Assembly: GCA_002104905.1 (NCBI GenBank)
Contig: MCFE01000923.1
Span: forward strand, 1 to 25,828
Length of the DNA: 25,828 nucleotides
Source of the DNA: Basidiobolus meristosporus CBS 931.73
Taxonomy: Eukaryota; Basidiobolomycota; Basidiobolomycetes; Basidiobolales; Basidiobolaceae
Direction of reading: 5' to 3'
The notes below the pieces were generated by a model. The model did no database searches. It was given only the letters and a program-made list of their open reading frames with translations, and was not told the origin of the DNA. Of the stretch, positions 1 through 25,828 are shown piece after piece (position 1 is the first letter of the stretch; each line of letters starts with the position of its first letter). Made by a program: the position numbers and the translations under genes.

Positions 1-150
1 CCTTTGGTATGCATGATTTAGCAAGGAGCTATCAGATTCATATCCACCATTCCCAAATAGTCGAATTCATCTCATTTAAAATTATTTGACAGGGAAAATT
101 TCTACTCCAACACAGCTTAAGAGGTTAAGCCACTTAGGTATACTTCAACC

Positions 151-1866
151 ATGTCCAAAAGCAATGCGTTCATGCGCAACCTGATAGAGCTATGTAAGCG
201 CAGGGGTTTCCTTTTTCAGTCAGCCGAGATTCACGGCGGTCTTCGTGGGGCCTACGATTACGGACCGCTTGGTGTAGAGCTCAAACGGAACCTCTCGGAA
301 GCTTGGTGGTCCGACATGGTATACAAAAAAGATAATGTAGTTGGCGTGGACACCTCTATCATCACCCCACCTGGGGTTTTCAAAGCCTCCGGACATTTGG
401 AATCCTTCACGGATGCTTTGGTGGACTGTAAATTGACCAAGGAGAGATTTCGCGCCGACAAGGCCCCGCCGCTTACAGTCATCGAAAAAAACGGCAGAAA
501 AGTGCTCCCTATTGCTGCACCCGATAAGGCTGTTGCCAAAGATTGGGAGCAGATGATCCAGCAGCTTTTACCTGGTATTTCGATTTCTCGGCATGGCAAG
601 GAGTTGGTGCTACCCATAGTCGACTTCCAGAAGCCTGCCTCGGTGGAAACTGCCGAGACCAACCCTGGAAAAATCATCTTCGAAGGGAAGGAAGCCGCTG
701 TCGAGTTGGCGTACCGCGGCTATGTGGAGCCAAATAGCAATTCCCCATTTTTGACTGACAGCCGACCATTTAATCTAATGTTCAAAACGTTCCTGGATCC
801 CATCGATCCTATAGAGAGAGTCATGACCACTACGTTGGCAGGTTCCCAAGAGACCGATGACATCAAAAAGCTTCGCCAGTCCGTGGACTCGGTGTTGGCT
901 GGATCCACAGTTTTCCTCCGACCAGAGACCGCGCAGGGAGTCTTCGTCAACTTCCTTGCTTGCCAGCGCACCCAGAAGCTTCGTCCACCCTTCGGCATCG
1001 CTCAGATCGGCAAATCATTCCGTAACGAGATTCGCCTCGAGCATGCAATCTTTCGTACGCCAGAGTTCGAACAGATGGAGTTGGAGTATTTTGTCCCTCC
1101 AGAAGACGATTCTAAATGGCTTTCATATTGGACTGAAGAGCGCTTCAAGTGGTGGAAACGGTATGCCAACCATCCAGAGAATTTCCGCCAACGTCCCCAC
1201 GAAGAGCATGAGCTTGCTCACTACGCTAAAGGCTGCGTAGATGTTGAATACAAGTTCCCTTGGGGCTGGGGTGAAGTGGAGGGAGTAGCCAACAGAGGGG
1301 ATTACGACCTAAAACAGCATTCCGAGCATTCCGGCGTAAGACTAGACTACAGCGAAGATTCCAAGGATTTGATCACCGAGAGCGGTGAACAAAGGACCGA
1401 AAAACGATCATACGTCCCCTATGTGATCGAATCCTCCTGCGGATTGAACCGCGCTCTTCTTGCTTATCTCGTCGACGCGTACAGCGAGGACAGCGTTATC
1501 GACCCCACTACCGGCAAGAGCGCGAAGAGACCATTGCTACGTCTTCACCCACAATTGGCACCCATCAAGGTTGCGGTCATGCCACTGATGCCTAAGCCGG
1601 AGCTGATGCCTCTCACCAAGCAATTGGTTAAAGCGTTCCGACGGGAAAGAATCAATGTCCGCTTGGAAGATCAGAATCTCAAGATCGGGAAGCGGTACTA
1701 TAGACACGACGAGATCGGTACCCCTTGGTGTGTCACAGTGGATTATCAATCTTTGGAGGACAACATGATCACAATTCGTGACAGAGATACAATGGAGCAA
1801 AAGCGTGTTGACATTGAGGGCGTTGTAAAGATGGTCAAAGAAAAGCTGACTGATGTAGACGAGTAA
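151..1866 (+). CDS. Glycyl-tRNA synthetase, bacterial-type alpha2 class II enzyme
   Basis: This 571-residue protein attaches glycine to tRNA-Gly. Class II landmarks are clear: the N-terminal YDYGPLGVELK stretch (36-46), RPETAQG (257-263), motif 2 FRNEI (290-294) followed by FRTPEFEQMELEYF (301-314), motif 3 ESSCGLNRALLAYL (427-440), and an anticodon-binding domain (about 467-566) ending in EIGTPWCVTVDYQ...RDRDTMEQ. The EFEQMELEYF form of motif 2 is typical of bacterial alpha2 GlyRS. Eukaryotic GRS1-type enzymes have a different sequence here and large insertions. The region that usually carries a four-cysteine zinc knuckle keeps only Cys93; residues 105-195 are a cysteine-free insert. The start aligns with the usual GlyRS N-terminus, so no mitochondrial presequence is visible, although an upstream exon cannot be excluded. 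It is the only GlyRS in view. No symbol is given because it does not look orthologous to fungal GRS1. Confidence 0.96.
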   Translation: MSKSNAFMRNLIELCKRRGFLFQSAEIHGGLRGAYDYGPLGVELKRNLSEAWWSDMVYKKDNVVGVDTSIITPPGVFKASGHLESFTDALVDCKLTKERFRADKAPPLTVIEKNGRKVLPIAAPDKAVAKDWEQMIQQLLPGISISRHGKELVLPIVDFQKPASVETAETNPGKIIFEGKEAAVELAYRGYVEPNSNSPFLTDSRPFNLMFKTFLDPIDPIERVMTTTLAGSQETDDIKKLRQSVDSVLAGSTVFLRPETAQGVFVNFLACQRTQKLRPPFGIAQIGKSFRNEIRLEHAIFRTPEFEQMELEYFVPPEDDSKWLSYWTEERFKWWKRYANHPENFRQRPHEEHELAHYAKGCVDVEYKFPWGWGEVEGVANRGDYDLKQHSEHSGVRLDYSEDSKDLITESGEQRTEKRSYVPYVIESSCGLNRALLAYLVDAYSEDSVIDPTTGKSAKRPLLRLHPQLAPIKVAVMPLMPKPELMPLTKQLVKAFRRERINVRLEDQNLKIGKRYYRHDEIGTPWCVTVDYQSLEDNMITIRDRDTMEQKRVDIEGVVKMVKEKLTDVDE

Positions 1867-2887
1867 GCCCGGTTTGCCTAATCCCGAGGCGAGGCAATCT
1901 CTTGCCAAGTAGCGGATACCATGCATAAGTTTCTCATTTCGTTACACCACGTTGCATCATCATTCAAATCAGCCAAGCTGCGAATTAAATTCTTTTGGGA
2001 GAACATCTCCAGTGTCAATAAAAAGCGATTCTCATTCAATCGAGTGATTCGATTCTATTGGTAAATATTCGTGGCGGGAGTGCCAACCTCTGGATGCCAG
2101 ATATCCTTTGATAGTTGGAGGATGCTAATTGTAATCCAAGAGGTGTGATGTCGACCCTTCCTTGCGTCAGGCCCAGTCATGGTTGATTACTCCATGCTAT
2201 TGCGATGTTGTGAGCAGATAGCGAGGACACAGGGGGTGGTGGCAAAACCATCATCACGGTGGTATTCGATACGCGATATGGATTGGCTCTTCGCGAGATG
2301 CTAATTCGAATCCAGGATTTCCACTGCTAGTCTCTGCAGGCGGTAGAGCAGCCTGATCTATCCGAATCCGCTAGCATGGTCCACCATCGAGATCTAGCTA
2401 GTGTACATCTTTCGTTTCTACAACTCAATCTTGCAGCATAAACCTCGATCTGTGGGGGCATGGGTCTACCTCCAATGCCTTGCTGAATCATGTTCTAATT
2501 GATCCTTTAGATTGATAACTCTCTCCAATCAAATGTTGACTACCTGATTCTGTGACGAATTCGTTATTTCTTTATGATGTCTATTGAGCAGAATGATTGG
2601 AGAACGTCCGCCTAATTCTAATAAAGGAGCTCATTGCGAATATAGGAGTTGAATTCAATGGACTTCAAATAGGAGTTAATCTGACCCAACTGCATAAACC
2701 ATCATTTGTTTACCAATTCTTGAATAACGATTTAGCCACACCTTTGGACTCTTTCTTTCCAGTTCTCGCGCTTCAGTTAGACGCTACGTAACCGCCATCT
2801 ACTTTGAGCCATATCTCCCATACCATTGATTAATATCTGGTTTACTGCCTCTGCCGCTGTGCCACTTCCACCACCATAAGCAAGATA
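1867..2887. other. Intergenic spacer between GlyRS and the Sec14-like gene
   Basis: About 1 kb of unique-looking sequence with no convincing ORF, tRNA or repeat. It should hold the GlyRS 3' UTR and the promoter and 5' UTR of the downstream gene. Short open stretches near 2597-2791 lack any recognisable protein feature. Confidence 0.5.
2017..2022 (+). promoter_or_regulatory. Polyadenylation signal AATAAA of the GlyRS gene
   Basis: A canonical AATAAA hexamer lies about 150 bp after the GlyRS stop codon, a reasonable distance for a fungal 3' UTR. It is assigned by position only. Confidence 0.45.
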
Positions 2888-4226
2888 ATGCCTAAAGAGC
2901 CAAAGAAGCGCACTGGCTTCCTTAATTCACTAGAGCCGGAGCAGAAAGTTGCTCTGGACGAACTATGGAAGGTGCTCATTGAGAAATTCGAAACGAACGA
3001 GGTAGAGGAAACAGAATCGCCCACAGAGAACACCCATGAAAACAATAGAAAATCCGGCTTTGGTAAATTCTTCAATAGAAACAAAACGGAAAAAGAGGAG
3101 CCAAAACAAACGAAAGCCACTCCGGAGCCAGAGACCCCCGCCAATCAGCAAACCCTAAGAGAGAGTTTCTGGAGGTTTGTATTGGGCGACCATCCTGATT
3201 CGATCCTCCTACGTTACTTGAGGGCCCGTAAATTCAACGTGAGCAAGGCTTCGAAGATGTTGCTTGGCACTTTGAAGTGGCGTATCCAAAACGATGTATC
3301 GGGCATTATTGAGAAGGGAGAGAAGATCGTCAGCACCCATGTTCTTCAAATTGGGAAGGGTTATCTGTATGGAGTCGATAAAGAAGGAAGGCCTGTTAGG
3401 TAAGTGCTTCAATACAGCTTGTAGTAGTGCATGGCTGGCTATGCCGGGGTGAAGCCAAGTTAAAACCGAATCCTAACCGGCGTATTCGAAATAGCTTTTG
3501 TCATGTTCGACTTCACAACAAGGACGATGAACCTATTGAAGAACTCGAGAAATTCACCATTTGGTTGATGGAGACCGCGCGTTTATTCCTGATCCCGCCT
3601 GCGGATTGTGTCTCTGTTGTCTTCGACATGAAAGACTTCTCGCTGAGTAACATGGACTATCCATTTGTTTCATTCATGAACAAGGTTTTGGAGAGTCACT
3701 ACCCCGAAAGTTTGGGGGTGGCATTGATATTGGGAGCACCTTGGGTATTCTCTGGTACTATTCATATTTCAACCTTGTCTGACGAAGCAAGTACTCATGT
3801 TTCATCTCAGGTGTTTGGAAAGTGGTCTCCCCTCTACTCGATCCAGTTGTTGCCAGTAAGGTGCAGTTCCTTGACAAATATGAGGATCTACAGAAGTTCA
3901 TTGAGCCAAGTATGCTGTTAAAGCAGTTTGGTGGCCAGAACCCTTATGAGTTCAAGTTTGTCCCACCACAGCCTGGTGAAAATGACATAATGAATGATAC
4001 CGAGGCCAAGAATCTAGCTTACGAGCAATGGTGGAAATCAGTTGACCAGTTCGAGAAAATCACTGCCACTCGACTTGCTTCCCCAAGCCCAGAGGTGGAG
4101 CAACAGCGGGAGGCTGCTGCCAAACAGTTACGAGCGGACTATTTCAAATTGGATCCATACATCCGTGCTAGAACAGTCTATCACCGAGTTGGGATACTTC
4201 ACAATGATGGCTCAGTGCACTGGTAA
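2888..4226 (+). CDS. CRAL-TRIO (Sec14-like) lipid-transfer protein, CSR1-like, three exons
   Basis: Spliced as 2888-3399, 3495-3754 and 3811-4226, giving 395 residues. Intron 1 (95 nt) has donor GTAAGT, a CTAAC branch site and acceptor ATAG. Intron 2 (56 nt) has donor GTACTA and acceptor CTCAG. Both joins keep the frame and restore expected family sequence (GRPV to CHVRLH; FSG to VWKVVSPLLDP). A charged linker (about 35-85) precedes the CRAL-TRIO N-terminal helices (about 88-136, with LLRYLRARKFNVSKA), followed by the lipid-binding fold. The C-terminus PYIRARTVYHR resembles yeast Csr1/Sfh2-type phosphatidylinositol transfer proteins. Such proteins are cytosolic or lipid-droplet associated and move or present phospholipids. 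It is complete and looks functional. The CSR1 assignment is by family resemblance; other Sec14 homologues are possible. Confidence 0.9.
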
Positions 4227-9116: not shown

Positions 9117-9279
9117 GATTTGGATGATTGGTATAGCAATGGCAATGATGGGTGACTTGATAGCAACAGTGGGCTCAGAGATTTGGATGATGGGTGATGG
9201 TGATGGTAGGTGATTTGATAGCAACAGTGGGTTCAGTGATTTGGATGATGGGTGATGGTGATGGTGGGTGATTTGATAG
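9117..9279. repeat. GAT/GGT-rich minisatellite, 2.7 units of 58-63 bp
   Basis: Three tandem units begin GATTTGGATGAT at 9117, 9180 and 9238. Units 2 and 3 are nearly identical; unit 1 is 5 bp longer and more diverged. Internal GATGGT triplets vary. The array ends 10 bp before the LINE fragment. The open frame across it reflects low-complexity repeat sequence, not a gene. Confidence 0.8.
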
Positions 9280-9288
9280 TGACACTTA

Positions 9289-9607
9289 GGGGGGGAGACA
9301 GTCACCAACAGGCAAAATCTTTATTTCAGTTGAAACAAAGAAGCCAGCGCTACTATAGTAGCTTTGATACAAGAGTGTGTAGCTGAGGAGAGTTTGTAGG
9401 TCAGTTAATAAGAAGTGATGATAGTTCTTTAGTGCCCAAGACACTGTTCAGTAGGAAGGGGGGTAGCAATAGAGGTAAGAATGACTTGTGAACAACATTA
9501 ATGAGGAGAATGTGATAAGGATTGATATTCATCATAAAGGGAGTGTGCTGCTGCAGATATTGCTGCCAAAGGTCTGTCTAGTACTTCAGGTAGGCCAGCT
9601 TGGGTTG
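9289..9607 (-). mobile_element. LINE 3'-end fragment (copy a), oldest and most internal
   Basis: About 319 bp matching the 3' end of the LINE at 21960-25680: the C-run, hairpin, GAAGCC module and the last roughly 85 codons of ORF2. It is more diverged than the distal copies, including a broken hairpin stem (GGCAA for GGTGA). The centromere-proximal junction reads CACTTAGGGGGGG, so TTAGGG meets the element end here too. Its 5' side ends 4-5 bp before a partial copia LTR. Confidence 0.85.
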
Positions 9608-9611
9608 TTCT

Positions 9612-13229: not shown

Positions 13230-14310
13230 TGTGGTGGTGTACAAGTCCAAAGGGAAAAAATGCAGCCAACACTTTTCAAGTGTGAATGTGTGTGGGGTGT
13301 TCACTGGGTGCAATAACCTCTGGCAAAACTTGCTAGGAATACTGGGTCTTCTGTCTAATCAAATGTGATGGGGGATAAAGCCTCAAGCTTGTCAAGGGAA
13401 AACTATTGAACTACAATCCCCAACTTAGTTGGCGTCTTAACATAAGTTTATAATGGCTTTGACGTCCTTTGAGATGACAATGTACTAAAGCTTCCAAAGT
13501 CAAAACAACTATAAACTCCACCAACAGAGACTTGATAAGAATGCAGCTTTGACCAATAGTTACAAAAACTGAAAAGTATCTTTGCCTGTAGAAGAACAAA
13601 CTTGGGAAAACAATCAAATATAATAAAATATACCTACTGTGAGTATTCCTCACAAGTAGTGCCTCCAAGGTCAGTTGGCTGTCAGCATGGTTTCCTGGGA
13701 GTATTGTCAGGTCTGAGTCAGAAAATAGTGGTAATAGGTAGCGGTGATCTCACTGATCAATAAGTTGGAATATTGGAAGAAGGATGATTTATTTTAAGGG
13801 ATAGCCTCCCTTATATACTTTTTTGCTGCTCAAATTCTTGCTAGAAAATACTTTCCGGAAGTTTCCAGAAGGTAGTAGACAGCCAATCATATCATTGTGT
13901 ACTAAAAATAGCGCAAATTCTTGGCAGATTGTTCTATGAGACATAGTAGCACCTAGCCAATCAGGTAGTGGTAATATGAAACCCCAGTATCATGTGGTTG
14001 CCTCTTATGGTAGTAGGATAGGAGGGTTATGAAACCAAGATGGTCACATGAAATGGGCACTGTTGGGAGTACTTGCCTTATATGGTAACTATCTTATCTT
14101 GGCATCTTGGAAAGGAATAGGAATAGCTTGTGCAATGGGTTAATAGTGACAAATAGTTTGTCAGGTTGCATAGTAATAATCACATAGACAGAATAGAAAA
14201 TATTGCAATTTGGGATGATACTAATATAGGGGGGGGGTAATCCTTTTTAGGGAAGTGAACGTATGAAAATGAGTACATCTGCCTGTGGGTGTCACTGTGA
14301 CCTCACTACA
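13230..14310 (-). repeat. Gypsy 3' LTR (1,081 bp)
   Basis: On the minus strand it starts TGTAGTGAGG just after the polypurine tract and ends TACACCACCACA. The end matches the 14-bp remnant at 19344-19357 and the end of the solo LTR at 8558. A TATA-type box (GTATATAAGG on the minus strand, about 13806-13818) would drive the element's RNA. The long part after the promoter is R-U5. Confidence 0.82.
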
Positions 14311-14324
14311 TCCACCCCCCTCTC
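14311..14324 (-). other. Gypsy polypurine tract
   Basis: On the minus strand GAGAGGGGGGTGGA immediately precedes the 3' LTR start TGTAGTG. This is the expected place and composition for the plus-strand DNA primer. Confidence 0.75.
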
Positions 14325-14349
14325 AGCTTTAAACTCAGGTCAAAGCAAA

Positions 14350-15645
14350 CTAAATGTGATGTGCAAAATTCCGGTGCTTGAATAGCTTAAGTCTGTTTCC
14401 TGCCACAGGTGCTCTTAGCGGTGTTTCATCAAGTTCAGACAAGTAGTAGCTTCCATTTCCAATCACCTTAGAGAAAATAAATGGGCCAGACCACTTATTG
14501 TCAAATTTGCGACTCCACTGCTTATCTGAAGTGGAATCATAGAGCAGTATTGGATCTCCTTGCAGCAATGGCTTTGGTCTAAGGCTATGTGACTTGTCAA
14601 ATGGTTCCTTGTTCTGAAGTCTTGTCTCTTTAAGTTTAGCAGCTGCTTGGGTAATATCAAGTTCATGGTGATCAAGCTGCTTGAAGCGTGTAGTCAGTAG
14701 TTCTTCTGTACTCATTGTAGTTCTCCACTCTAGCATGTTCCAGGATGTTGAGTCAAGCTCTATGGGAAGAACGCAATTGTGTCCATAAAGCAATTTGAGT
14801 GGAGATAGGCCTGTACTGCGTTTTGTAGTGATTCTATCTGCCCAGAGTGCTAGATGAAGTTGTCTAGGCCACTGTAGTGTCATGTTGTTGCAGCTCTTGA
14901 CCAGGGAGCTAACCAACGGGCCAGGGCCCCTTTCAACCATTCCATTGGCCTGTGGGTGATAAGCGGTGGTGAAAGCAATATGAATCTTGTATTGTGAGCA
15001 GAGTTCCTGGATCAAATTTGAAGTCATTTCTCCTTGGTCAGCAACAAACTGGCTGATGCAGCCAAATCTGCACATTATATCTTCAAGAATAAATCTCTAT
15101 ATTGTGTGGCTTTTGTTATTGGATAGAGCTCAAGCTTCTACCCACCCACTCAGATCATCTCTGGCAACAACTAGGTACTTCTTGTTTCCAGCAGCTGGCA
15201 TGTGGACCAGGTCAATTCCAACCTTCTACCATAGGCAAGGTGTGTAGGTTGGATGGAGCAGCTCCTTATATCTCTTGGTTGACCTTCTTTGGCAAATGTC
15301 ACAAGATTCAACAAAGTGTTGGACATCATGATACATATGCTCCCAGTAATACCTACTGGAAACAACATTGTAAGTGGCATCTCTGCCTCTATGACCACCA
15401 GGTCTTCCTTCATGAAGGCTTGACATAATAGTCAGTTGTTCCTGGGGCTCAACTATATCTCTCCTTGGTGTCTGTCCAGGCTTTACTTGTTTGAAGAGGA
15501 GGCCATCCTTTATGTAGAAATGATGGGCCTTCTTCCTGAGCTTTCTGAAATCATGTGGGCTCATTCCTGGCGGCTTCTCTAAGGTTCTCAGATAGTCTTG
15601 AATGGTGTTCCACGTAGAGTTGCTGGGCTTCTTCACATGTAGTTG
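14350..15645 (-). pseudogene. pol: Gypsy integrase region
   Basis: The segment starts with the HHCC zinc-binding domain (LHEGRPGGHRG ... CDICQRRS) in 15636-15226. The catalytic core follows: first Asp in VGIDLVHMP, second Asp in FVADQGEMTSN, and Glu in HPQANGMVERG, the last two about 35 residues apart as in DDE integrases. A GPY/F-like module (WSGPFIFSKVIGNGSYYL) lies near the end, and TAG at 14350 ends the frame. In-frame stops lie at 15646 (TGA), 15226 (TAG), 15130 (TGA) and 15097 (TAG). There are no frameshifts. No chromodomain is seen. Confidence 0.9.
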
Positions 15646-16365
15646 TCAAATTTCTGCATCAATTATGTCATCAAAGTCAGGGTCCATATCTTCAGACAAC
15701 TCTAGTCCCTTCCTGGAGAGTGCATTGGCCACAACATTTGTCTTGCCAGGGATATGTCTGACCTCAAAGTCAAACATTTTCAGCCATGCCATCCACCAAT
15801 TTGTGGCATCATCAGGTAGATCAGGCTTGTTGATCATTCCTATAAGTGACTTAGCATCTGTCTCCAGGATAAAATGTGTCATGTAGAGTTGTGACTTCAG
15901 CTTTCTCAGCATCTTCATAACTCCTAGTAGCTCTCTCTTAATCTGTGAATATCTTTGTTCTCTAGGAGAGAAGAGGCAGCTCTCATATCTGCAGGCATAG
16001 CGGTTGCCATCTTCATCATCTTGGCCAAGTAGTGCTCCAGCTCCTATAGGGCTTGCATCCACTGTCAAGATAGGTGGGCATTCAGTGTTCTGATAGTCAA
16101 GAGATCTCAGAGCTGGTGGAGATACTAAGGCCACTTTTAGTAATTGCATGGCTTCTTCTTGCTCTTCTCCCCAGTGAATTGGGGCATTTTTTCTCTGTAG
16201 TCAGTAGATTGGTTCTGCTATCTCAGAATATCTTGGGATCCAGATCCTAAAGAACCCACAAGCTGCCACAAACCCACAAGCTTGTGTTAGATTTGTGGGG
16301 GTAGGCCAGTTGCATATTTTTTGTGTCTTGGAGTCACCAGGTGAACGGACAAAGGTGTTGCATCT
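15646..16365 (-). pseudogene. pol: Gypsy RNase H region
   Basis: Follows the RT in the same frame. It starts with the connection segment (CNWPTPTNLTQACGFVAACG) and continues with the RNase H fold: DASPIGAGALLGQ, ESCLFSPREQRYSQIKREL and ILETDAKSLIGM, ending with HIPGKTNVVANALSR typical of Ty3/gypsy elements. A TGA at 16201 interrupts it. The region ends at TGA 15646. Confidence 0.88.
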
Positions 16366-17463
16366 TTATCCTACAATGGATATCTCTGATACACCAAAGC
16401 TGCTTTTCTCTCCACTGATGGTGAGTCCAGCTTCTTCAATGGCTCCTAATATAGCATCATTGTCTGAAATATGGTCATAGACAAATTTTCTTACTCCAGG
16501 CATAACTTCACTTGTGTCCCGGAGTTTTGGTCCTTTGATGCCTATGTCATCAACAAAGACAGCAAGTTTCTCAGGTATATACTGGTAGAGCACATTTACC
16601 ATGCATATCTGGAACTGAGCCACAGAGTTTGTTGCTCCTTGGCTGAGTCTTGTCATTCTTAACAGTCCAAATGGTGTCTGGAGTGCAAACATATCTCTTG
16701 ATGTCTCATCTAGGGGGATCTGGTCATACCCTGAGTAGAAATCATATGTTGAGTAGATGGAGTGACCTCTAAAGCTCTCTGCAAAGTCATCAATATATGG
16801 AGCTATTGCAGCATCTCTAATAGTGACAGCATTGGTAGGTTGCATGTCTTGGATGAATTGGAGCTTCCCATTCTTCTTCTTGGTCACAAACCATCTGTTA
16901 GCGTAAGGTCCATGGCAAGGTTCTAGGATACCAGCTTCAATCTTCTTCTTAAGTAGGTCATTCACATCAGCTTGGAGTCCTCTTGGCAGTGGGTAAGGCT
17001 TAAATGACCAGGGTGTGTGGGGCACTGTATGAATCTTGATAGGGTTTTCAACCAATGTCTTTAAGAGTCCCATCTCCTTGTCATTATATGAGAAAACCTT
17101 ATCATGTCATTTCAGGGTTTCTTCAAATAATAAGATCTCCTCCAGTGTTAGGTTTCCATCACCAATGATAAGTTGCTTAAGTCTCTCAGGTGTAAGTTGT
17201 ATATCTTCTGGTGTTCCTTCTGATGGTCTGATGTAATCAGCAGGTTGAGATCCATCACTTAAAGGTGTAAGGGATGGTCTAATCTTCTGTTCTACTGTCT
17301 TGTATTTTGTGCAAACCATAGCTGTCTGCTCCTGTATACCTAATGAGCAGCTCCAACTGTTGGGGTGTATATTGTCAGGCTCCTCCTCTTCTTTTATAAC
17401 AAGATGTGTCTTCTGGCAAGCAGTATGTGTTCTCTTATTGTTGGGTGTTACCCCACAGAATGT
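16366..17463 (-). pseudogene. pol: Gypsy reverse transcriptase region
   Basis: After the Gag-PR stop (TAA 17464) the same frame continues through an acidic linker (about 17460-17110), a TGA at 17107, then the RT. RT motifs include the PYPLPRGLQADVNDLL start, WFVTKKKNGKLQFIQDMQPTN, motif A STYDFYSGYDQIPLDE and motif B LSQGATNSVAQFQ. The catalytic box is FVDD, where most Ty3 elements have YIDD or FLDD. TAA at 16366 ends the segment just after SFGVSEISIVG. Confidence 0.9.
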
Positions 17464-19203
17464 TTACTGTAGTCCTGGGTTTGATCCTTGTATAGTGTAC
17501 CACACTGACCCATCAGAATAGTTGGTAGTTGTAGCCTTAGTACTGGTCTCCCATGGTCTGCCTAACAGAAGGTCAAAGTTTGCCTTCTGGCAGATAAAGA
17601 GGGGATGCCAGACCTTGATTCCTTGTACCTCAATAGGGAACTTGTGCACTACACCATTGAGTGGGCTAGATCCTGAGTTTGGATCAGTCATGTTCCATCC
17701 AATATCTCTATCAACAGGCAGTAGCTCCTTGCTTCTAAGCGTGTTCCAGAAGTCTAGCGGCATAACACAAATCTCTGAACCACTGTCAATATGGCAGTCA
17801 ACAGGATCATCATAAATATACCCTTTCACCACAGCAGTTGCAACTGAGTAAAAAGTCTTATATTTGGTAGTGTTGTCATCCTTTTGGTGGTCTTCATGGT
17901 TTGTCTGGATTATATGGGTGTCTATATGTTCAACAGCTTGTCTTCTTGTTCTAAGCTGCTCATCAAAGGTCTTCCTAACAGACGGTGATACACTGATGAT
18001 TTCTCCAACCAACAAGGCAAGGTTCTGCTTGCGCAGCTTCTCAGTAATCAGTTGAGGGCTTGAGTAGCCTGCAATCTTTGAGGTAATCTGAAAGTGAGGC
18101 AATGGGTCTTGGGTGGGCAGTATTCCAGGCCTCTTGCCAATGATAACCTCAGGCTCTTCAAACCATGGTGTTCTAAGGATGGGCTTAACAGGTTCTTCAG
18201 GAAGGTGTCTCTTAGTAGCAAAGGCATCTACCTTATATTTTCTGTTGTCAGGGCTGCTTGGACCCACTGTATGAGTCTCAATAGGGGCATCAACAGTAAT
18301 CTTTCTAGTTGCTGAGTCAGACTTCTGGAAAAGGGCTCTCATTCCGCCTCTTCTGAAATTAGTGGGAATCCTTTTTCCTTCCCTGTCAGCTAGCATTCCA
18401 TCAGCATCAAACTGTACTGTTCCTTCTCTAAGTAGTTGACTAAGTTCTGAGCATTCTTGTCTGGCATGCTGGGTAGAGTCACACCAAATGCAGTGTCTGG
18501 GCAAAGGTCTTTGGCCCTCAGTAGCTACCTCAGCTGAGCCGTTAATCTTGAGGGCTAGCTTTTGTAGCTGTTCAGCAAGTTGGTCAATTCTGTCGGTAGT
18601 GTAGGTCTGATTGTCAGCAGCAGCACTCTTTAGCTCCTTGGTTGGCTGGTCTGGCAGATTAGATATCAGGAGTCTCATAAAGGTAGAAGTTTGCTTTGCC
18701 TCTAGGAGTACACGTTTCATCTCTGCAAAGCAAGGAATGCCAGACTTGTCATCCTTGGCTGCATCTAAGTCAACTTTCCTTGCCAATTCCTGGGGAAGCC
18801 CTTGTGCCAGGTAAAGTGTCATGGTAAACTCAGTTATAGCCTGGGACTCTAGGAGTGGCTTGGCCATATCTTCATACTGTTGAATGAACTCTTCAAGTGT
18901 TAGCTTGGAGAGTCCTGTCCTTCCAAAGTGCCTGAGGTCTTCAATTCCATAGTATATCTGGGGTCTACCATACTTGGTCTGTAGGTAGGTCTTCTTTAAG
19001 GTCCAGTTAGTCAGAATGTCTCCTTGTCTGAGAAGCTTAGTGGTAATATCATTGGTGCAGTAGTAGGGGAAGTCTTCAGCCATTTCTTGTTGAGATAGGC
19101 TGCACATCTTGCAGAGCTTCTCCCATTTGAATATGAAGCTTGCCATATTCTTTCCATCAGACTGTGGGGCTCCATGTGAGAGTGGTAACGGCATAGAGTT
19201 CAT
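17464..19203 (-). pseudogene. gag-pro: Gypsy Gag and aspartic protease (579 codons)
   Basis: ATG 19203 opens a 579-residue segment. Residues about 20-180 are capsid-like, predicted helical with EDLRHFGRTGLSKLTLEEF. A CCHC zinc knuckle CIWCDSTQHARQEC is at 238-251, and the retropepsin active site HIDSGSEICVMPL has its Asp near 473, followed by LLLGRPW. This part has no internal stop. It ends with CAG-TAA at 17464, after which the frame continues as pol, so the stop probably arose by mutation rather than being a programmed boundary. Confidence 0.9.
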
Positions 19204-19321
19204 TTTGGGTAGGTAGGTTGGTGCTATAGTCTTGATAATATTGGTAGTCTTGTTTCAATAAATGGGTAACAGCTCAAATCTTCAGGTAAGTCTTGTTGGG
19301 TCCTAGGGAGCTTGTATGAAC

Positions 19322-19340
19322 CCCCCACATTGGGTGCCAA
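19322..19340 (-). other. Gypsy primer-binding site
   Basis: On the minus strand TGGCACCCAATGTGGGG begins three to four bases after the 5' LTR end, complementary to a tRNA 3' end ending ...GGGUGCCA. The tRNA species cannot be named from this alone. Confidence 0.65.
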
Positions 19341-19343
19341 ATA

Positions 19344-19357
19344 TGTGGTGGTGTATA
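19344..19357 (-). repeat. 14-bp remnant of the gypsy 5' LTR
   Basis: TGTGGTGGTGTATA matches the first 14 bp of the 3' LTR (TGTGGTGGTGTACA at 13230) with one difference. After it the sequence changes to a G-run and LINE copy b, so more than 1 kb of LTR is missing. Confidence 0.75.
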
Positions 19358-19360
19358 GGT

Positions 19361-19630
19361 GGGGGGGAGACAGTCACCAACAGGTGAAATCTTTATTTCA
19401 GTAGAAACAAAGAAGCCAGCGCTTCTGTTGTAGCTTTGATACAAGAGTGTGTAGCTGAGGGGAATTTGTAGGTAAGTTGATAAGAAGTGATGATAGTAAT
19501 TCAGTGCTCAAGACACTGTTCAGTGGGAAGGGGGGTAGCAAGAGAGGCAAGAATGACTTGTGAACAACATTAATGAGGGGAATGTGATAAGGATTGATAT
19601 TCATCATAAAGGGAGTGTGCTGCTGCAGAT
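19361..19630 (-). mobile_element. LINE 3'-end fragment (copy b)
   Basis: About 270 bp matching the LINE 3' end: C-run, hairpin (19374-19387) and the last roughly 70 codons of ORF2. On the centromere side it is fused to the broken gypsy 5' LTR through TAGGTGGGGGGG. On the telomere side it is cut at CTGCAGAT and joined to copy c. The ORF2 frame remains open in this fragment. Confidence 0.88.
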
Positions 19631-19631
19631 A

Positions 19632-19813
19632 GGGGGGGAGACAGTCACCAACAGGTGAAATCTTTATTTCAGTTGAAACAAAGAAGCCAGTGCTACTGTT
19701 GTAGCTTTGATACAAGAGTGTGTAGCTGAGGGGAATTTGTAGGTAAGTTAATAAGAAGTGATGATAGTTCTTCAGTGCTCAAGACACTGTTCAGTGGGAA
19801 TGGGGGTAGCAAG
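19632..19813 (-). mobile_element. LINE 3'-end fragment (copy c)
   Basis: About 180 bp of LINE 3' end with hairpin at 19645-19658. It is joined to copy b by AGGGGGGG and cut on the distal side at GTAGCAAG, where GGTTAGGG and the next element follow. Confidence 0.88.
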
Positions 19814-19818
19814 GGTTA

Positions 19819-20247
19819 GGGGGGATGATCATCACCAAAGGGTGAAATCTTGATTTAAATAATAAATAAAGAAGCCAAGTTTGAATATGAATATCTGAGA
19901 TGCAGGAAGCCTATAAGATAAACTTTGACTTTGCTGTATCCCAAATATCCTCAATATCAAAGTCTAGAGGAGAGTGTAGCAAGACTGCTTGTTAACTGTA
20001 GTATTTCTTGAGGAAGTTTGTGACTTGAAGGGAAGGAGAGTTTTTCAACAAGCTAGTAAATCTTTTGAGGAGTTCTTTTTCAGAGAGAATGGCACAAAGA
20101 GTGGAATGTCCAAATGATGTCTGAATATATGTTCTGAGAGCTCCCAATCCAGCATATTTTTGACTTCTTCTGTAAAATCTTCAACAATATCTTTGTCAAG
20201 AATAACTTCCAAGAGATCCCTGGCAATGTACTGAATGTTAATAATTT
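19819..20247 (-). mobile_element. Related LINE remnant: ORF1 piece fused to a 3' tail (element d)
   Basis: The 3' tail has the shared design (AAAGAAGCCA, AAGATTTCACC, hairpin TCACC-CTTT-GGTGA, C-run next to CCCTAA) but a diverged sequence. Upstream, a minus-strand frame reads RDLLEVILDKDIVEDF and, further on, VTNFLKKYYS and IEDIWDTAKS. These align with ILEVILDQNIADPF, VAYFLKNHAIS and FEELWDSAGH of the neighbouring LINE ORF1, in the same order. Stops break the frame. The endonuclease and RT are absent, so this is an ORF1-only derivative of a second LINE family or the product of a large deletion or template switch. Confidence 0.7.
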
Positions 20248-20248
20248 A

Positions 20249-20336
20249 GGGGGGAGACAGTCACCAACAGGTGAAATCTTTATTTCAGTTGAAACAAAGA
20301 AGCCAGCACTACTGTTGTAGCTTTGATACAAGAGTG
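20249..20336 (-). mobile_element. LINE 3'-end fragment (copy e)
   Basis: Only about 88 bp: C-run, hairpin (20261-20274), 3' UTR and the last codons of ORF2. Joined to element d at ATAATTTAGGGGGG and cut distally at AGAGTG, where a telomere-like tract begins. Confidence 0.88.
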
Positions 20337-20366
20337 AGGTAGGGTTAGGGCTCAGGTTAGGGTTAG
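20337..20366 (+). repeat. Interstitial telomeric tract
   Basis: AGGTAGGGTTAGGG, then CTCA, then GGTTAGGGTTAGGG: about four TTAGGG-like units with a short interruption, between LINE copies e and f. It is the longest internal telomere tract in the window and the same strand as the terminal repeats. Confidence 0.85.
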
Positions 20367-20898
20367 GGGGGAGACAGTCACCAACAGGTGAAATCTTTAT
20401 TTCAGTTGAAACAAAGAAGCCAGCGCTACTGTTGTAGCTTTGATACAAGAGTGTGTAGCTGAGGGGAATTTGTAGGTAAGTTAATAAGAAGTGATGATAG
20501 TTCTTCAGTGCTCAAGACACTGTTCAGTGGGAAGGGGGGTAGCAAGAGAGGTAAGAATGACTTGTGAACAACATTAATGAGGGGAATGTGATAAGGATTG
20601 ATATTCATCATAAAGGGAGTGTGCTGCTGCAGATATTGCTGCCAAAGGTCTGTCAAGTACTTCAGGTAGGCCAGCTTGGGTTTTTCTGACTGCAGAATAT
20701 AGTGAGCAAACTTCTTGACTTCAGGATCTCCAAGTATAGTTCTCCAGCAGGAGCCAGGTGTTGTGTGGTGTGTTCTCTTCCAGGCCTTAATCAGTGGGTT
20801 GTTGCAGTGGTGAAGTCTGAGGTATAATCTGGTTCTAAGGTAGAGAAGTCTGATCTTATAGGGCATAAACCCAAAAGCACCAAGAATAGCATGTCTGT
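20367..20898 (-). mobile_element. LINE 3'-end fragment (copy f), about 530 bp
   Basis: Carries the 3' UTR, hairpin (20378-20391) and about the last 160 codons of ORF2 from FMPYKIRLLYLRTRLYL onward in an open frame, nearly identical to the LINE at 21960. It is cut distally at GCATGTCTG and followed by TTAGGG and the first SINE. Confidence 0.9.
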
Positions 20899-20900
20899 TA

Positions 20901-21424
20901 GGGGGAGGAAAGTCACCAAGTGGTGAAATCTTTATTTACTTATGACAAGTATCTAAAGAAGCCAAGTTAATCTGAAGTAATTCCTAGAAAGCTAGGTCTG
21001 AGAGATATCTTCCTGGTAAGCCAGGTCTGAGAGTTGAGAAGCTGAGTGGTACTATATTTCCTAGTTAGCTAGGTCTGAGAGAGGTTTCCTGGAAAGCCAG
21101 GCCTGAGAAGTGAGAATCTGAATATATCTGAGCTAAGTTTTACTGGTTTGCGGTAGCTGAATTGTGGCCGGAATGGCCAGTAGACTAGGGGAACTGAGAT
21201 GAATTTCTGGGCGATCACTGGCCAAATTTACTAGGCAAATCTGACCAATTAGCATTTCAAGGATTTCAGCCAATCAGAGCCTTTACTTTGCCCGATGGTT
21301 GATCAAGCCATCTCCCAATGAGCACACATCAATTTATTGATCAAATTTTGCTGGATCCAGGATTTGAACCCACAACCATGGGTATGGAAGGGTTAGGGAT
21401 AACCACAAGGCTAAGTGTTCTTGG
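20901..21424 (-). mobile_element. tRNA-headed SINE (copy g, 524 bp)
   Basis: On the minus strand the 5' end is tRNA-like: A box TAGCCTTGTGGTT (complement of 21401-21413) and B box GGTTCAAATCC (complement of 21360-21370), about 30 bp apart, as in RNA polymerase III promoters. The body has four hairpins and no ORF. The 3' end repeats the LINE tail design (GAAGCC, AAATAAAGATTTCACC, hairpin 20913-20926, C-run). It is flanked by TTAGGG on both sides. It would be mobilised by the LINE RT through the shared tail. Confidence 0.85.
20983..21101 (-). other. Four related hairpins in the SINE body
   Basis: Palindromes CCTAGAAAGCTAGG (20983-20996), CCTGGTAAGCCAGG (21012-21025), CCTAGTTAGCTAGG (21060-21073) and CCTGGAAAGCCAGG (21088-21101) are each followed by a TCTGAGA-like stretch. 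Stems alternate between CCTAG/CTAGG and CCTGG/CCAGG, so both arms change together. The same set occurs in copy h. This suggests a folded RNA. Confidence 0.7.
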
Positions 21425-21430
21425 TTAGGG
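21425..21430 (+). repeat. Single TTAGGG unit between the two SINEs
   Basis: The tRNA-like 5' end of copy g (TGTTCTTGG) meets TTAGGG, then the G-run of copy h. The identical arrangement occurs at 21954-21959 between copy h and the LINE. Confidence 0.85.
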
Positions 21431-21953
21431 GGGGGAGGAAAGTCACCAAGTGGTGAAATCTTTATTTACTTATGACAAGTATTAAAGAAGCCAAGTTAAT
21501 CTGAAGTAATTCCTAGAAAGCTAGGTCTGAGAGATATCTTCCTGGTAAGCCAGGTCTGAGGGTTGAGAAGCTGAGTGGTACTATATTTCCTAGTTAGCTA
21601 GGCCTGAGTGAGGTTTCCTGGAAAGCCAGGCCTGAGAGGTGAGAATCTGAATATATCTGAGCTAAGTTATACTGGTTTGCGGTAGCTGAATTGTGGCCGG
21701 AATGGCCAGTAGACTGGGGGAACTGAGATGAATTTCTGGGCGATCACTGGCCAAATTTACTAGGCAAATCTGACCAATTAGCATTTCAAGGATTTCAGCC
21801 AATCAGAGCCTTTACTTTGCCCGATGGTTGATCAAGCCATCTCCCAATGAGCACACATCAATTTATTGATCAAATTTTGCTGGATCCAGGATTTGAACCC
21901 ACAACCATGGGTATGGAAGGGTTAGGGATAACCACAAGGCTAAGTGTTCTTGG
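21431..21953 (-). mobile_element. tRNA-headed SINE (copy h, 523 bp)
   Basis: Nearly identical to copy g; I see about seven differences, including one short indel near the 3' tail. It has the same A and B boxes, hairpins and 3' module (hairpin 21443-21456). Both copies are complete at the tRNA end, unlike the LINE fragments. The element next to its 5' end is the long LINE. Confidence 0.85.
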
Positions 21954-21959
21954 TTAGGG

Positions 21960-22017
21960 GGGGAGACAGTCACCAACAGGTGAAATCTTTATTTCAGTTG
22001 AAACAAAGAAGCCAGCG
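21960..22017 (-). other. LINE 3' UTR and terminal hairpin
   Basis: Short 3' UTR after ORF2 stop TAG 22018: CGCTGGCTTCTTTG, then GAAATAAAGATT with a poly(A)-like AATAAA, hairpin TCACC-TGTT-GGTGA (21970-21983), CTGTCT, C-run. It is the part shared with the SINEs and element d, so it is the likely RT recognition site. Confidence 0.75.
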
Positions 22018-24110
22018 CTACTGTTGTAGCTTTGATACAAGAGTGTGTAGCTGAGGGGAATTTGTAGGTAAGTTAATAAGAAGTGATGATAGTTCTTCAG
22101 TGCTCAAGACACTGTTGAGTGGGAAGGGGGGTAGCAAGAGAGGTAAGAATGACTTGTGAACAACATTAATGAGGGGAATGTGATAAGGATTGATATTCAT
22201 CATAAAGGGAGTGTGCTGCTGCAGATATTGCTGCCAAAGGTCTGTCAAGTACTTCAGGTAGGCCAGCTTGGGTTTTTCTGACTGCAGAATAAATGCAGCA
22301 AACTTCTTGACTTCAGGATCTCCAAGTATAGTTCTCCAGCAGGAGCCAGGTGTTGTGTGGTGTGTTCTCTTCCAGGCCTTAATCAGTGGGTTATTGCAGT
22401 TGTGAAGTCTGAGGTATAATCTGGTTCTAAGGTAGAGAAGTCTGATCTTATAGGGCATAAACCCAAAAGCACCAAGAATAGCATGTCTGTAGGGGCATTC
22501 AGGCAAATGAGGCACCAAGGAGGTAATGCACCATACTGCAAACTTGTCAAGCTTAGTGCAGTCTCTAGAAGTAAGAGAGAGAAGTGGTAAGCCAAATTCC
22601 AGGACAGGGAAGACAAACTGCTTGAGTAGAAGGAGGCAGCTGGGAGCTGAAGTTGTAGGAGGAGTAACAGCCAGTAGCTTGTGGAGTGCCTGTCTTGCCA
22701 GGATAATTCTCTTCTTCAGGTGTGCTCCAGAGTCTAGTCCAGTAGGAAGGAAAGGAAAGCCAAGATATGTAGCAGAAACCTGAGCAGGTAGAGTGGAGTT
22801 CTCCAAGTTGATGGGAGAGCCCAAAGGTACTGTCTTTGCAATGGAAAGCTGGAGATTATTCTTCTGCAGATACTGGTGGATGGTCTGGGAGTCTTGTTGC
22901 ACATTGGAGGAGGATATTCTGATGTCATCAGCAAAGAGAGTAACCAGGCAGTCAGCTGAGAGTCTTGGGAAATCATTCAGGAAGATGGCAAACAGTATAG
23001 GACCAAGCACAGAGCCTTGAACCACTCCATTAGGAACTGAGAACACAGCTGATTGCTCACTTGGGTGCAGAATTCTTGCTTGTGGATCCACAAACAGAGA
23101 CCTGACAAGGAGGGTGAGAGAGGTACTGGAGAAGCATTGCAACTTGGACCAAAGCAGATTTCTGTCAACTGAATCAAAGGCCTTAGTAATATCAAACAGA
23201 ACAGAGGGATACTTGCACTGGAGAGAGTGATCTTGGCTAAGTATGACTGCATATTCCAAGGAGAGGCCAGGAACAAAGCCAAACTGTGCAGGATGAAACT
23301 TGAGGGAGTCAGAGTAGAGCTCCTGAGCAAGCAGAAGCTCAAACACCTTTCTGCAGGTGGGCAGCAGAGATATTGGCCTGTAGGAGCTAGGATCCAGGTG
23401 CTTTCCTTTACCCTTGTACAGTGGCAGAACATTTGCAAAGGACCATTCCTCAGGAGTAGAAAGCTGGGCTGAGCATTGCTGAAACAGTGGAAGCAGAAGT
23501 GCAGACATGGCCTTGGTACTAGTCTTCAGAAGCTCATAAGAGATTGTGTCCACACCTGGAGCAGTAGAGTTGGGAAGCCTCTTGAGCACATTATGGATTC
23601 TCCTTTGATCAAGTGCAAGTGGGATGGGCAGAGTCTTGAAGTCAGGATGAAAGCCAGGAGTTGAGTACTGCTTTGTAGAGAAGAAGATGTTAGCCAGCTG
23701 TTCTGTTGAAGGTAACTTCCTGGAAGAGGGCCTCATTGCCCTGTAGAGTCTTGATACTGTTCTTGTTATAGAGTTGGAAGATTGCAGAGGCAAGGAACTC
23801 ATAATATGATCCCAGAGCTGAGTATGCAGAGTGTGGTGAATTGCCTTGGAGTGGTGCATTGCTGTCAGGAGGAGTTTCTCTGTTTTTGGGTTAGGGAAAC
23901 TCAGGTAGCTTTGTTGCAGGGCTGAAACAATGGATTCCCATTTTCTTGAGGTAACAGCAGTAGTCTTGCATGGCAGTGAGAGGGAGGCAGACACCAGAAT
24001 CAGATGCTTCACAAAGAGCCAGGCATAGTTGAGATCATCTGGCAGAGAAAGTAGCAAACTGGCAAGCTTCAAGTAGTTCCCAAAGTCATTTCTTCTGATT
24101 CTTGGTAGCT
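22018..24110 (-). pseudogene. LINE ORF2, reverse transcriptase part
   Basis: An open stretch of about 697 codons, from near 24110, ends in TAG at 22018. Counting from the ATG at 24072, RT blocks are APGVDTISYE (171-180), SYRPISLLP (230-238), motif A LFDITKAFDSVDR (292-304), motif B PNGVVQGSVLGPILF (347-361) and catalytic FADD (380-383). The catalytic residues are intact. After the RT lies a leucine-rich C-terminal region of about 250 residues. No RNase H domain and no CCHC knuckle are visible. The upstream part lies in a different frame, so this copy is broken by frameshift, although the RT itself looks uncorrupted. Confidence 0.9.
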
Positions 24111-24789
24111 TTGTGGGTGAGCACAGTAAGTTTTGGCAGCTTCTTCTTCACAACTGGTTGCATAGAAAGGGACCAGGCTGGGATGGTCAGAGGCTCTCAA
24201 GGATCCTAGCTCAGCTCCAGAGAATTGCTTAACTTCATTCCACAAAGTAGAGGGCAGCAGCAGAAGGGCAGATCCAGTCAACACATCTTTTCTCAGATTG
24301 AGCACCTAGTGCTAGCAGATGGCTTTCTCTCAGGAAGTTCAGTAGGAATGTAGACCTTGGCTTCATTCTTGCAGTCAGAGTAGTCTTGTTCTCAGGATGG
24401 GGAATGTTGAGATCTCCAAGCAAGATAACAGGTGTTGATATAGATTGTTGGTATTGCTGAACCTTCTGGCATATAACTTGCACTTCCTGAAGGGCTAGAC
24501 TTGGAGGCAGATAGCAGAGCACCAGACTGATAGTTGGCAACTGGAGAGCAGCACAGTAAGGGGAGTAAAGAGGAACACAGAGCTGAGGAGTATTGATGGT
24601 AGAAGAGATGAAGCAGATAGAGGAGGTATTCTTTGTTCTAGGAGTAGAAAAGCAATATAGATTAGTCAAAAGTATAGAGGGTAGCTGGACATCAATCAAA
24701 CACAGGAGGGAAAATCTTGAAAGAAGTCTCTCTAGAGTTGGTCTTGATGGCTGTATGCTGTTGCAGTTAAGCAACAGAACTTCAGGTAG
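24110..24789 (-). pseudogene. LINE ORF2, AP-type endonuclease part, frameshifted
   Basis: Endonuclease/exonuclease/phosphatase fold of the LINE type: start LLLNCNSIQP, core strand LLCLIDVQLP where families usually show a QET motif, VILLGDLNIP (the GDFN motif), CVDWICP (the xDYI strand), then, after a frameshift near 24235, RASDHPSLVPF (the SDH motif). A second shift before 24110 leads back to the RT frame. The catalytic Glu of the QET motif seems replaced by Asp. This domain nicks target DNA, and its target choice would decide telomere specificity. This copy cannot make an intact enzyme. Confidence 0.78.
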
Positions 24790-25680
24790 TCAGGCAGAGG
24801 TTGTAGCTTCTTCAGAGGCAGCATTGATAATGTGACCTGCAGAGTCCCAGAGCTCTTCAAATGGTGCATCACTTAAGTCAGCAAGGAGGGAAATGGCATG
24901 ATTCTTGAGGAAGTATGCCACATCATAGGAGGGGGCTTGTCTCTTGATGGCAGCAAAGAAAGACAGAATGGCAACATGGGCTGGAGGCTTGTTGAACAGT
25001 AGAGAGTCAGAGGATTCAGATTCTTCAGGCACTATCTTGAAGTCAGTTTTCAGCCAGTTAAGGTTCTTCTCCACAAAGGTAACAAATGGGTCAGCAATGT
25101 TTTGGTCTAGGATAACCTCCAGAATCTTCCCTTTTCTCCAGGCCAGGTTGACAATTCTTGAGAGCTGAATATTGCATGCCTTGAGTGCTTTCCTGATGTT
25201 GGAAATGGGAGTCCAGGGAACTTGCTTCAAGTACACCACAGTCCAGGTAGAAGCTGGTGGTAGGTTTGCTGGGGGCTTGTAAGTCCTTCTGTGTTGCAAT
25301 GGAGCTGCAGTAGTCAGATTGGAGTCCACATTCTCAGTAGAAGGTTTTCTTGATGTGTCTTGCTGAATAGTACTGGAGCTGGATGTGCTGATAATTCTTG
25401 CTAGAACCTTGCCTGCATAAGTCTGAGGTATAGCTGAGGTGACTGTAGAGGTGGTGGCAGCTGGTGCAGGTGGAGAGGCAGAGACTAAAGCAGGAACTGA
25501 GGTCACCTGGGAGAAGGCAGTGGAAGCAGGTTTTCTGGGAGGAACAGAGTTCACTATCCAGTTGTTCTGTAAAACACTGGAGTAGCTTTTCTGTGGAACA
25601 GGATCTTGCTCTTGAACAGGAACAGAAGCAGGAGGCTGGGGCTGAGCAGTAGTGGTAAGGCAGTGGCTAGGCTTCAGGAT
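24790..25680 (-). pseudogene. LINE ORF1, 5'-truncated RNA-binding-like protein
   Basis: The frame is open from the telomere junction to TGA 24790 (about 297 codons). The N-terminal half is rich in Pro, Ser, Thr and Ala. The second half has an RRM-like beta-alpha-beta feel (TWTVVYLKQVPWTPISNIR ... ILEVILD). ORF1 proteins of LINEs bind their RNA. There is no start codon; the reading frame continues as Asn-Pro repeats into the telomere. The stop is TGA followed by CTA, in the same frame as the endonuclease. A diverged relative survives in element d. Confidence 0.75.
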
Positions 25681-25828
25681 AGGGTTAGGTTAGGGTTAGG
25701 GTTAGGGTTAGGGTTAGGGTTAGGGTTAGGGTTAGGGTTAGGGTTAGGGTTAGGGTTAGGGTTAGGGTTAGGGTTAGGGTTAGGGTTAGGGTTAGGGTTA
25801 GGGTTAGGGTTAGGGTTAGGGTTAGGTT
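25681..25828 (+). repeat. Terminal telomere repeats (TTAGGG)n
   Basis: About 148 bp of TTAGGG repeats to the window edge, perfect except for one short unit (TTAGG) near the base. The G-rich strand runs toward the right end, so this is a right-hand chromosome end. The uniform repeats imply working telomerase. Confidence 0.98.

Follow-up and report, generated by a model that had tools for sequence, protein, structure and literature searches.

The right end of a contig from Basidiobolus meristosporus CBS 931.73 carries a head-to-tail array of eight retroelement units that runs up to a TTAGGG tract. The window, as the whole stretch analysed is called here, is the complete 25,828-nucleotide contig MCFE01000923.1; the assembly totals 89.0 Mb in 1311 contigs. 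The array (19361-25667) consists of five copies of LINE-A, a long interspersed nuclear element (LINE; units b, c, e, f and i), one copy of family D (d), which has open reading frame 1 (ORF1) only, and two copies of S1 (g and h), a family resembling short interspersed nuclear elements (SINEs). Every 5' end points toward the telomere and all units have a common 3' tail. Such arrays probably grew by retrotransposition onto nearly telomere-free or broken chromosome ends, alternating with telomerase; we give this reading a probability of roughly 0.6. The array and its parts are as follows.

19361..19631, minus strand: unit b, LINE-A positions 1-270, divergence 2.2%
19633..19813, minus strand: unit c, LINE-A positions 1-181, divergence 1.1%
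19820..~20248, minus strand: unit d, 5'-truncated copy of the ORF1-only family D with a broken frame, divergence 1.4%
20249..20336, minus strand: unit e, LINE-A positions 1-88, divergence 1.1%
20337..20365, no strand: degenerate short TTAGGG spacer between e and f, read from the sequence
20366..~20900, minus strand: unit f, LINE-A positions 1-538, divergence 0.2%
20901..21428, minus strand: unit g, S1, SINE-like, full-length, divergence 0.8%
21431..21957, minus strand: unit h, S1, full-length, divergence 1.1%, A and B box near the 5' end
21958..~25667, minus strand: unit i, 5'-truncated LINE-A with frame breaks, element positions 1-3708, divergence 0.4%
21958..22017, minus strand: 60-base 3' tail of LINE-A in unit i, with hairpin UCUUU..AAAGA, hairpin UCACC-UGUU-GGUGA and C-run (RNA fold z=-3.5)
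22018..24072, minus strand: reverse transcriptase frame of unit i (PF00078, E=1.6e-25)
24235..24774, minus strand: endonuclease frame of unit i, apurinic/apyrimidinic endonuclease (APE) type (PF14529, E=1.3e-4, weaker than the curated cut-off)
24790..25554, minus strand: part of ORF1 of unit i, without Pfam match, with homology (29% identity across 155 aa) to the protein of family D
25680..25826, plus strand: terminal (TTAGGG)n tract, adjoining unit i at its 5' end

The array is genuine. All eight consecutive units of one orientation, 3' ends toward the centromere, that the original prediction had named were found, and they coexist, as it said, with a telomerase-type tract. It had called the units non-LTR elements; b, c, e, f and i are LINEs, g and h are SINE-like (527 bp) and not pieces of a LINE, and d is ORF1-only. 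The joins through a G-run or TTAGGG that it described need qualification: b adjoins the long terminal repeat (LTR) of a Gypsy element without TTAGGG and c has 2 telomere-register bases before its G-run, so that telomere tracts between units are very short. Unit i lacks its 5' part, fuller LINE-A copies being ~4.66 kb long versus 3.7 kb in the window. Two further families, E1 and E2, were found at other chromosome ends. The families with reverse transcriptase are thus A and E2, those with ORF1 only are D and E1, and S1 is SINE-like.

Genome-wide searches place these elements at contig ends. A degenerate pattern for the 3' tail, which passes over the longer loops of E1 and E2, matched 1090 times forward and 83 times reverse; 1173 matches against none for the reversed control is more than chance. 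The sequence (TTAGGG)5 occurs 6978 times forward and 73 times reverse (reverse control 12), and from this parallel strand asymmetry most contigs appear to be oriented with the telomere at the right. For LINE-A, 40 matches along a 300-base query were taken, 30 of them with contig sizes and 25 on contigs of at least 40 kb; 23 of the latter 25 lie within 11 kb of the end faced by their 5' side. Among the 100 tail matches listed, the 29 on nine long contigs of known length are likewise all within 18.3 kb of the end faced by their 5' side. In contrast, the 40 other Gypsy matches among those listed are split between strands (18 plus, 22 minus). A sample chosen by telomere sequence was also drawn: a telomere-start pattern in one register gave 108 forward and 3 reverse matches, and from the first 100 listed the first 40 C- or A-preceded starts were used in list order, with T-preceded starts (possible within-tract restarts) and contig C22 excluded. 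An element adjoins 28 of these 40 starts, in 28 of 28 cases with its 5' end toward the telomere. Copies near contig ends, in one orientation and beside TTAGGG, are what had been predicted for a search of other ends with the 3' module. That the array is an artefact of assembly, or a peculiarity of this single contig, is hardly credible: many of the contigs are short, but dozens of them show the same structure with different truncations, and the control pattern had 0 matches.

Two loci depart from this pattern. At C726:57485-64882, two opposed arrays lie close together in one contig with their 3' sides facing, which may be a fold-back, a fusion or a misassembly. At C558:96175-99474, a LINE-A/E1/Copia array is ~97 kb from the contig end that it faces and is perhaps an internalised former chromosome end.

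The joins themselves were studied in 57 segments (240 kb), gathered mostly through element matches, which yielded 154 unique 3' junctions. A C-run tail (a G-run on the plus strand) is present at all 154, the collecting pattern having required a C-run and other endings having been unsought. Exact telomere-register bases before the G-run number 0-9 in 144 junctions and fewer than 12 in 146, with 12 or more in 8 and only 0-1 in 19; the junction starts at the first GGG in 88 and at the second GGG in 58. Terminal tracts are longer than those between elements, up to 240 bases in the segments analysed. The flank is a known LINE, SINE-like or ORF1-only element at 97 junctions and an LTR retroelement at 11 (six plus, five minus orientation), the break points of the latter being judged by alignment ends alone. 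The clearest of the LTR joins is in the window, where the array meets this element:

13265..19360 (left limit approximate), minus strand: Ty3/Gypsy LTR retroelement with reverse transcriptase and RNase H domains, 5' LTR broken at 19360

At 19360/19361 there is no TTAGGG and the LINE-A G-run follows at once. Gypsy homology extends to 19360 in 38 of 40 other copies among those listed, and three aligned copies continue past it. The lost part of the LTR is matched at 13265-13446; distal to 19360 it was not found, and the search there gave just 14-base matches (E 0.49).

The other side of each unit bears on telomerase, of which a TERT domain is encoded on contig C880 (PF12009, above cut-off). In a count by eye of the 100 listed TT-phase starts of long tracts, the preceding base is C in 54, T in 40 and A in 6; between elements it is C in 25, T in 16 and A in 6 (n=47), where C is expected in 24%. 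The C bias in both places suggests that telomerase started both kinds of tract on bare 5' ends. It is a sign that telomerase begins tracts on element 5' ends, and the same may hold between elements; the preferred C might stem from a G next to the template of the telomerase RNA. Microhomology with the telomere register amounts to 1.8 bases versus 0.76 expected at 40 junctions (0/5000 resamples). A fixed-length telomeric tail on the element RNA was also considered; it looked strong on 114 junctions, became weaker with 154, where tracts reach 31 bases, and was dropped.

A sequence of events can be proposed for the growth of the arrays, in which families A, E2, D, E1 and S1 would retrotranspose onto chromosome ends. 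The shared RNA tail, with its hairpins and C-run, would be gripped by the LINE enzyme, which would take up the RNAs of the other families too; the C-run would base-pair with GGG at the 3' end of the G-strand, and the chromosome end itself would prime the cDNA. Synthesis from the chromosome end would make the 3' end of the element face the centromere and turn its often-truncated 5' end into the new terminus, on which telomerase would then begin TTAGGG. Ends with 0-2 repeats, or broken ends, would accept the next element, and otherwise a long telomere would form, the two outcomes presumably alternating in time. The D/E1 protein may have a role in targeting.

Joins without TTAGGG and short upstream tracts favour this end attachment over insertion by an endonuclease. 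The latter would be target-primed reverse transcription (TPRT), in which an APE endonuclease nicks the G-strand at the telomere base, no more than one or two TTAGGG repeats from subtelomeric DNA; each new copy would then be added outside the earlier ones and keep the pre-existing telomere on its 5' side, as with TRAS/SART and MoTeR elements. The endonuclease of SART and TRAS is of the APE type, as in the Basidiobolus elements. Relatives carry such an enzyme, and nicking of this kind would place junctions at the first or second GGG, where 88 and 58 of the 154 lie; uniform orientation and age order are anticipated as well, although both are expected from either mechanism. One new MoTeR1 insertion is reported one repeat from the telomere junction (PMC7367193), but SART1, according to PMC7265360, requires at least 3 repeats. 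The 19360/19361 join without TTAGGG, the joins to LTR elements and the C bias, which suggests that telomerase began on bare 5' ends, also speak against TPRT at the telomere base, and we consider it rather unlikely. Attachment to ends, as the original prediction had it, is the better-supported mechanism, joins to LTR retroelements included, with endonuclease insertion at the telomere base kept as the doubtful but possible route just described.

Several observations weigh against end attachment alternating with telomerase. At least 3 telomere-register bases are found in 122 of the 154 junctions, which is expected from an enzyme that cuts in TTAGGG. With small errors allowed, 24 junctions carry 10-31 telomere-like bases, and part of the 19 with 0-1 exact bases become near-telomeric. 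The microhomology figure left out 38 of 78 non-full-length junctions (those with changed or extra bases) and took its null from LINE-A alone. Two LINE-A copies, at C558:97675 and C726:58985, are far from ends or in opposed arrays, and 12 of the 40 telomere starts match nothing in the partial element library. Age order, treated below, is reversed in 4 of the 16 arrays with at least four copies, and in the window S1 unit h (1.1%) is more diverged than g (0.8%). Finally, an APE-type endonuclease is kept, though end attachment strictly needs none. This favours TPRT, but Drosophila TART and TAHRE keep an APE endonuclease too, and their new copies seemingly need no nick, by the account in PMC5537684.

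Divergence falls on average toward the telomere. In LINE-A pairs the proximal copy is the more diverged in 43 and the less diverged in 15 (permutation p=0.0016), and in S1 pairs the counts are 23 and 10 (p=0.038). Across the window LINE-A divergence is 4.3% in an older copy, a, that lies left of the array, then 2.2% (b), 1.1% (c), 1.1% (e), 0.2% (f) and 0.4% (i). The left-to-right record of time that had been predicted thus holds on average, 12 of 16 arrays following the trend, and fails in the four reversed ones. Among the 56 LINE-A copies with both ends in the segments analysed, 55 different 5' ends occur; of 49 S1 copies 32 are full-length, and the 3' end is kept in 135 of 144 copies. These counts of distinct 5' ends and kept 3' ends argue against growth mainly by recombination among ends alike in telomere and element sequence, with little new retrotransposition. 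Such recombination is documented for MoTeR arrays (PMC8381367, PMC7367193), and contigs C22 and C25 have an identical E1 truncation point at the telomere; as the main source of the arrays it is nonetheless improbable. A same-family-flank test, blind to families outside the library, detected no nesting among these elements in 189 copies; Copia LTRs interrupt S1 and LINE-A copies. About 700 bases of unknown sequence, which could belong to a further mobile family, interrupt one LINE-A copy at C77:14300-18197.

The feature common to the families is the 3' tail. Folding, which covered LINE-A, S1, D and E1, predicts two hairpins at the RNA 3' end, one of the UCUUU..AAAGA type and one of the form UCACC-loop-GGUGA, with the C-run after them. 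The fold z-scores are -3.5 for LINE-A, -3.1 and -3.6 for two copies of S1, -5.0 for E1 and -1.0 for the window copy of D. The second stem is kept and its loop differs by family: on the plus strand it reads AACA in 66 of 78 LINE-A and AAGT in 43 of 48 S1 copies, and D and E have other sequences of four to six bases.

S1 is 527 bp long and has no reading frame of 70 codons. Near its 5' end, unit h has an A box, TAGCCTTGTGG, and a B box, GGTTCAAATCC; the pair scores 21 of 22, a value reached by 0/1000 mononucleotide shuffles. Judged by sequence, S1 has the traits of a SINE: it is short, lacks an ORF, has predicted internal RNA polymerase III promoter boxes and shares its 3' tail with a LINE. For an origin of its head from tRNA, 7SL or 5S RNA, ARAGORN found nothing and Rfam gave no match of such kind; a tRNA origin is unsupported, since tRNA models fail to recognise S1.

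In fuller LINE-A copies the 5' region has two repeats of period 100, ORF1 is open over 523 codons, and ORF2 encodes endonuclease and reverse transcriptase; in all three copies inspected ORF2 is broken. The 5' region at C96:7300-17732 also contains an internal telomere-like stretch, CGCAACCCTAACCCTAA. E2 is a LINE: its 3' portion codes for a protein that matches the C-terminus of the reverse transcriptase protein P0007 at 65-66% identity. The reverse transcriptase frame in the window matches, over 35% of its length, a protein of B. meristosporus CBS 931.73 at 98% identity. In the LINE proteins an APE-type endonuclease domain precedes the reverse transcriptase. Residues 1-211 of the relative P0003 match APE folds in a predicted model with a mean pLDDT of 50.5, of which only that part is usable; a PDB sequence search with the endonuclease frame had zero matches. 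The published CCHC..RHD pattern of the restriction-enzyme-like (REL) endonuclease, and looser forms of it, match 0 of 7 proteins, though a diverged REL domain could escape them. The motif LCLIDV in the window endonuclease frame (24235-24774) is common to the relatives P0003 and P0006, and its position is that of the catalytic Glu of APE endonucleases (here E to D). The annotated 595-aa protein K493DRAFT_353650 (P0002) is largely three tandem copies of the ORF2 C-terminus of LINE-A and looks like a gene model that spans several fragments joined head to tail, with precomputed Pfam labels that seem spurious.

D and E1 are known from partial elements. Each has a single long frame on the LINE-sense strand. 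In the copies analysed the frames cover 262 and 234 codons, respectively, and the two proteins are 43% identical. Over 155 residues the D protein and LINE-A ORF1 share 29% identity (E=1e-18 in that one comparison), and comparison of the D and E1 frames with the reverse transcriptase proteins gave no match. A classification of D and E1 as LINEs ("four LINE families") was rejected on the ORF1 homology and the absent reverse transcriptase match. A database search with the D protein had two matches only, among them a 269-residue Basidiobolus ranarum protein that is 62% identical over 98% of the length; this near-full-length match indicates that family D encodes a complete protein rather than the last part of a LINE polyprotein. 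The D stop codon is ~90 bases from the tail. A genome search with the D/E1 proteins gave at least 147 matches, 136 minus and 11 plus among those listed, 21 with stops. Between copies, the ratio of nonsynonymous to synonymous substitution (dN/dS) ranges from 0.17 to 0.43 in 3 pairs of D and from 0.14 to 0.49 in 13 pairs of E1; it is below 1 in 16 of 16 pairs, which are not independent of one another. By these substitution ratios D and E1 are under purifying selection, like HeT-A.

In working, the arrays are closest to the HeT-A, TART and TAHRE elements of Drosophila, with D and E1 in HeT-A's place by analogy rather than descent. In both systems, as reported for the flies (PMC5537684, PMC10088271, PMC4700185), units are joined head to tail with their 3' ends facing the centromere, broken ends are used (in Basidiobolus, probably), and reverse transcriptase-bearing elements that keep an APE endonuclease are combined with gag- or ORF1-only elements under negative selection. 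HeT-A is described as lacking pol, and its negatively selected Gag as directing the others to ends (PMC5537684). Drosophila, in these accounts, has no telomerase and uses poly(A)-tailed Jockey elements, whereas Basidiobolus has a TERT domain (known from sequence), TTAGGG, C-run tails and a SINE-like passenger. The predicted likeness to HeT-A and TART is therefore apt for working and division of labour and breaks down at the encoded telomerase domain and at poly(A), which was not seen at the 154 junctions collected by their C-run.

By host kingdom and arrangement, the closest systems described are MoTeR and FoTeR. MoTeR1 and MoTeR2 of Magnaporthe oryzae are likewise non-LTR elements of a fungus that stand at TTAGGG ends in head-to-tail order with the 5' end distal (PMC7367193, PMC8381367). 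They too have truncated copies and a non-autonomous partner, and their telomere begins either from a seed in register (17 of 23 truncated ends) or after C (five of the other six; PMC7367193). Unlike the APE-type Basidiobolus LINEs, MoTeR1 is reported to have a REL endonuclease. MoTeR2 shares both termini around an unrelated insert, whereas the Basidiobolus partners are ORF1-only and SINE-like, and MoTeR tracts are given as half to more than 20 repeats, against mostly less than 2. FoTeR of Fusarium oxysporum resembles the present elements in being telomere-only, with 5' ends toward the terminus, truncated copies outnumbering full ones and 5' tandem repeats, and differs in its REL endonuclease and in having typically 3.0-7.0 telomere repeats at one side (PMC12857005). 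TRAS/SART of Bombyx mori (R1 clade) are the closest by endonuclease type and likewise use telomere repeats as an address; their insertion is within repeat tracts, and SART1 also requires a poly(A) tail (PMC7265360), whereas 146 of the 154 Basidiobolus junctions have fewer than 2 exact repeats upstream. As these systems are described in the sources cited, none agrees in every tested feature. With somewhat less than even odds, we tentatively propose a self-arisen HeT-A/TART-style system in a telomerase-bearing fungus, in which a LINE reverse transcriptase, a selected ORF1-only Gag-like protein (perhaps for targeting) and a SINE recognised as template by hairpin and C-run would heal near-bare ends that telomerase then caps.

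The remainder of the window leads up to the array. Its left part has ordinary genes, which encode glycyl-tRNA synthetase-like and CRAL-TRIO domains; Copia and Gypsy retroelements follow to the right, and after these come the array and (TTAGGG)n. The older LINE-A copy stands apart:

9290..9611, minus strand: copy a, 5'-truncated LINE-A fragment, element positions 1-322, divergence 4.3% (blastn)

The sequence directly before it is TTAGGGGGGG. An empty site for copy a was sought, and its left flank has no close second copy. Just to its left, a 58-base tandem repeat is present in 2.2 copies (9151-9279).

In the literature found, chromosome ends built by retroelements with a gag-only partner are those of Drosophila, tied to telomerase loss, and the telomere elements of fungi belong to the REL (CRE) type. 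Searches of the open-access literature for a telomere-bound SINE, Basidiobolus telomere elements or ORF1-only telomere elements gave none outside flies among the matches listed. Here, in an early-diverging fungus, APE-type LINEs, ORF1-only elements under apparent purifying selection and a SINE-like element share chromosome ends with telomere repeats. This makes it testable whether such an end-building system requires the loss of telomerase, what role an ORF1-only partner has at the ends, and how an uncapped end is shared by telomerase and LINE enzymes.

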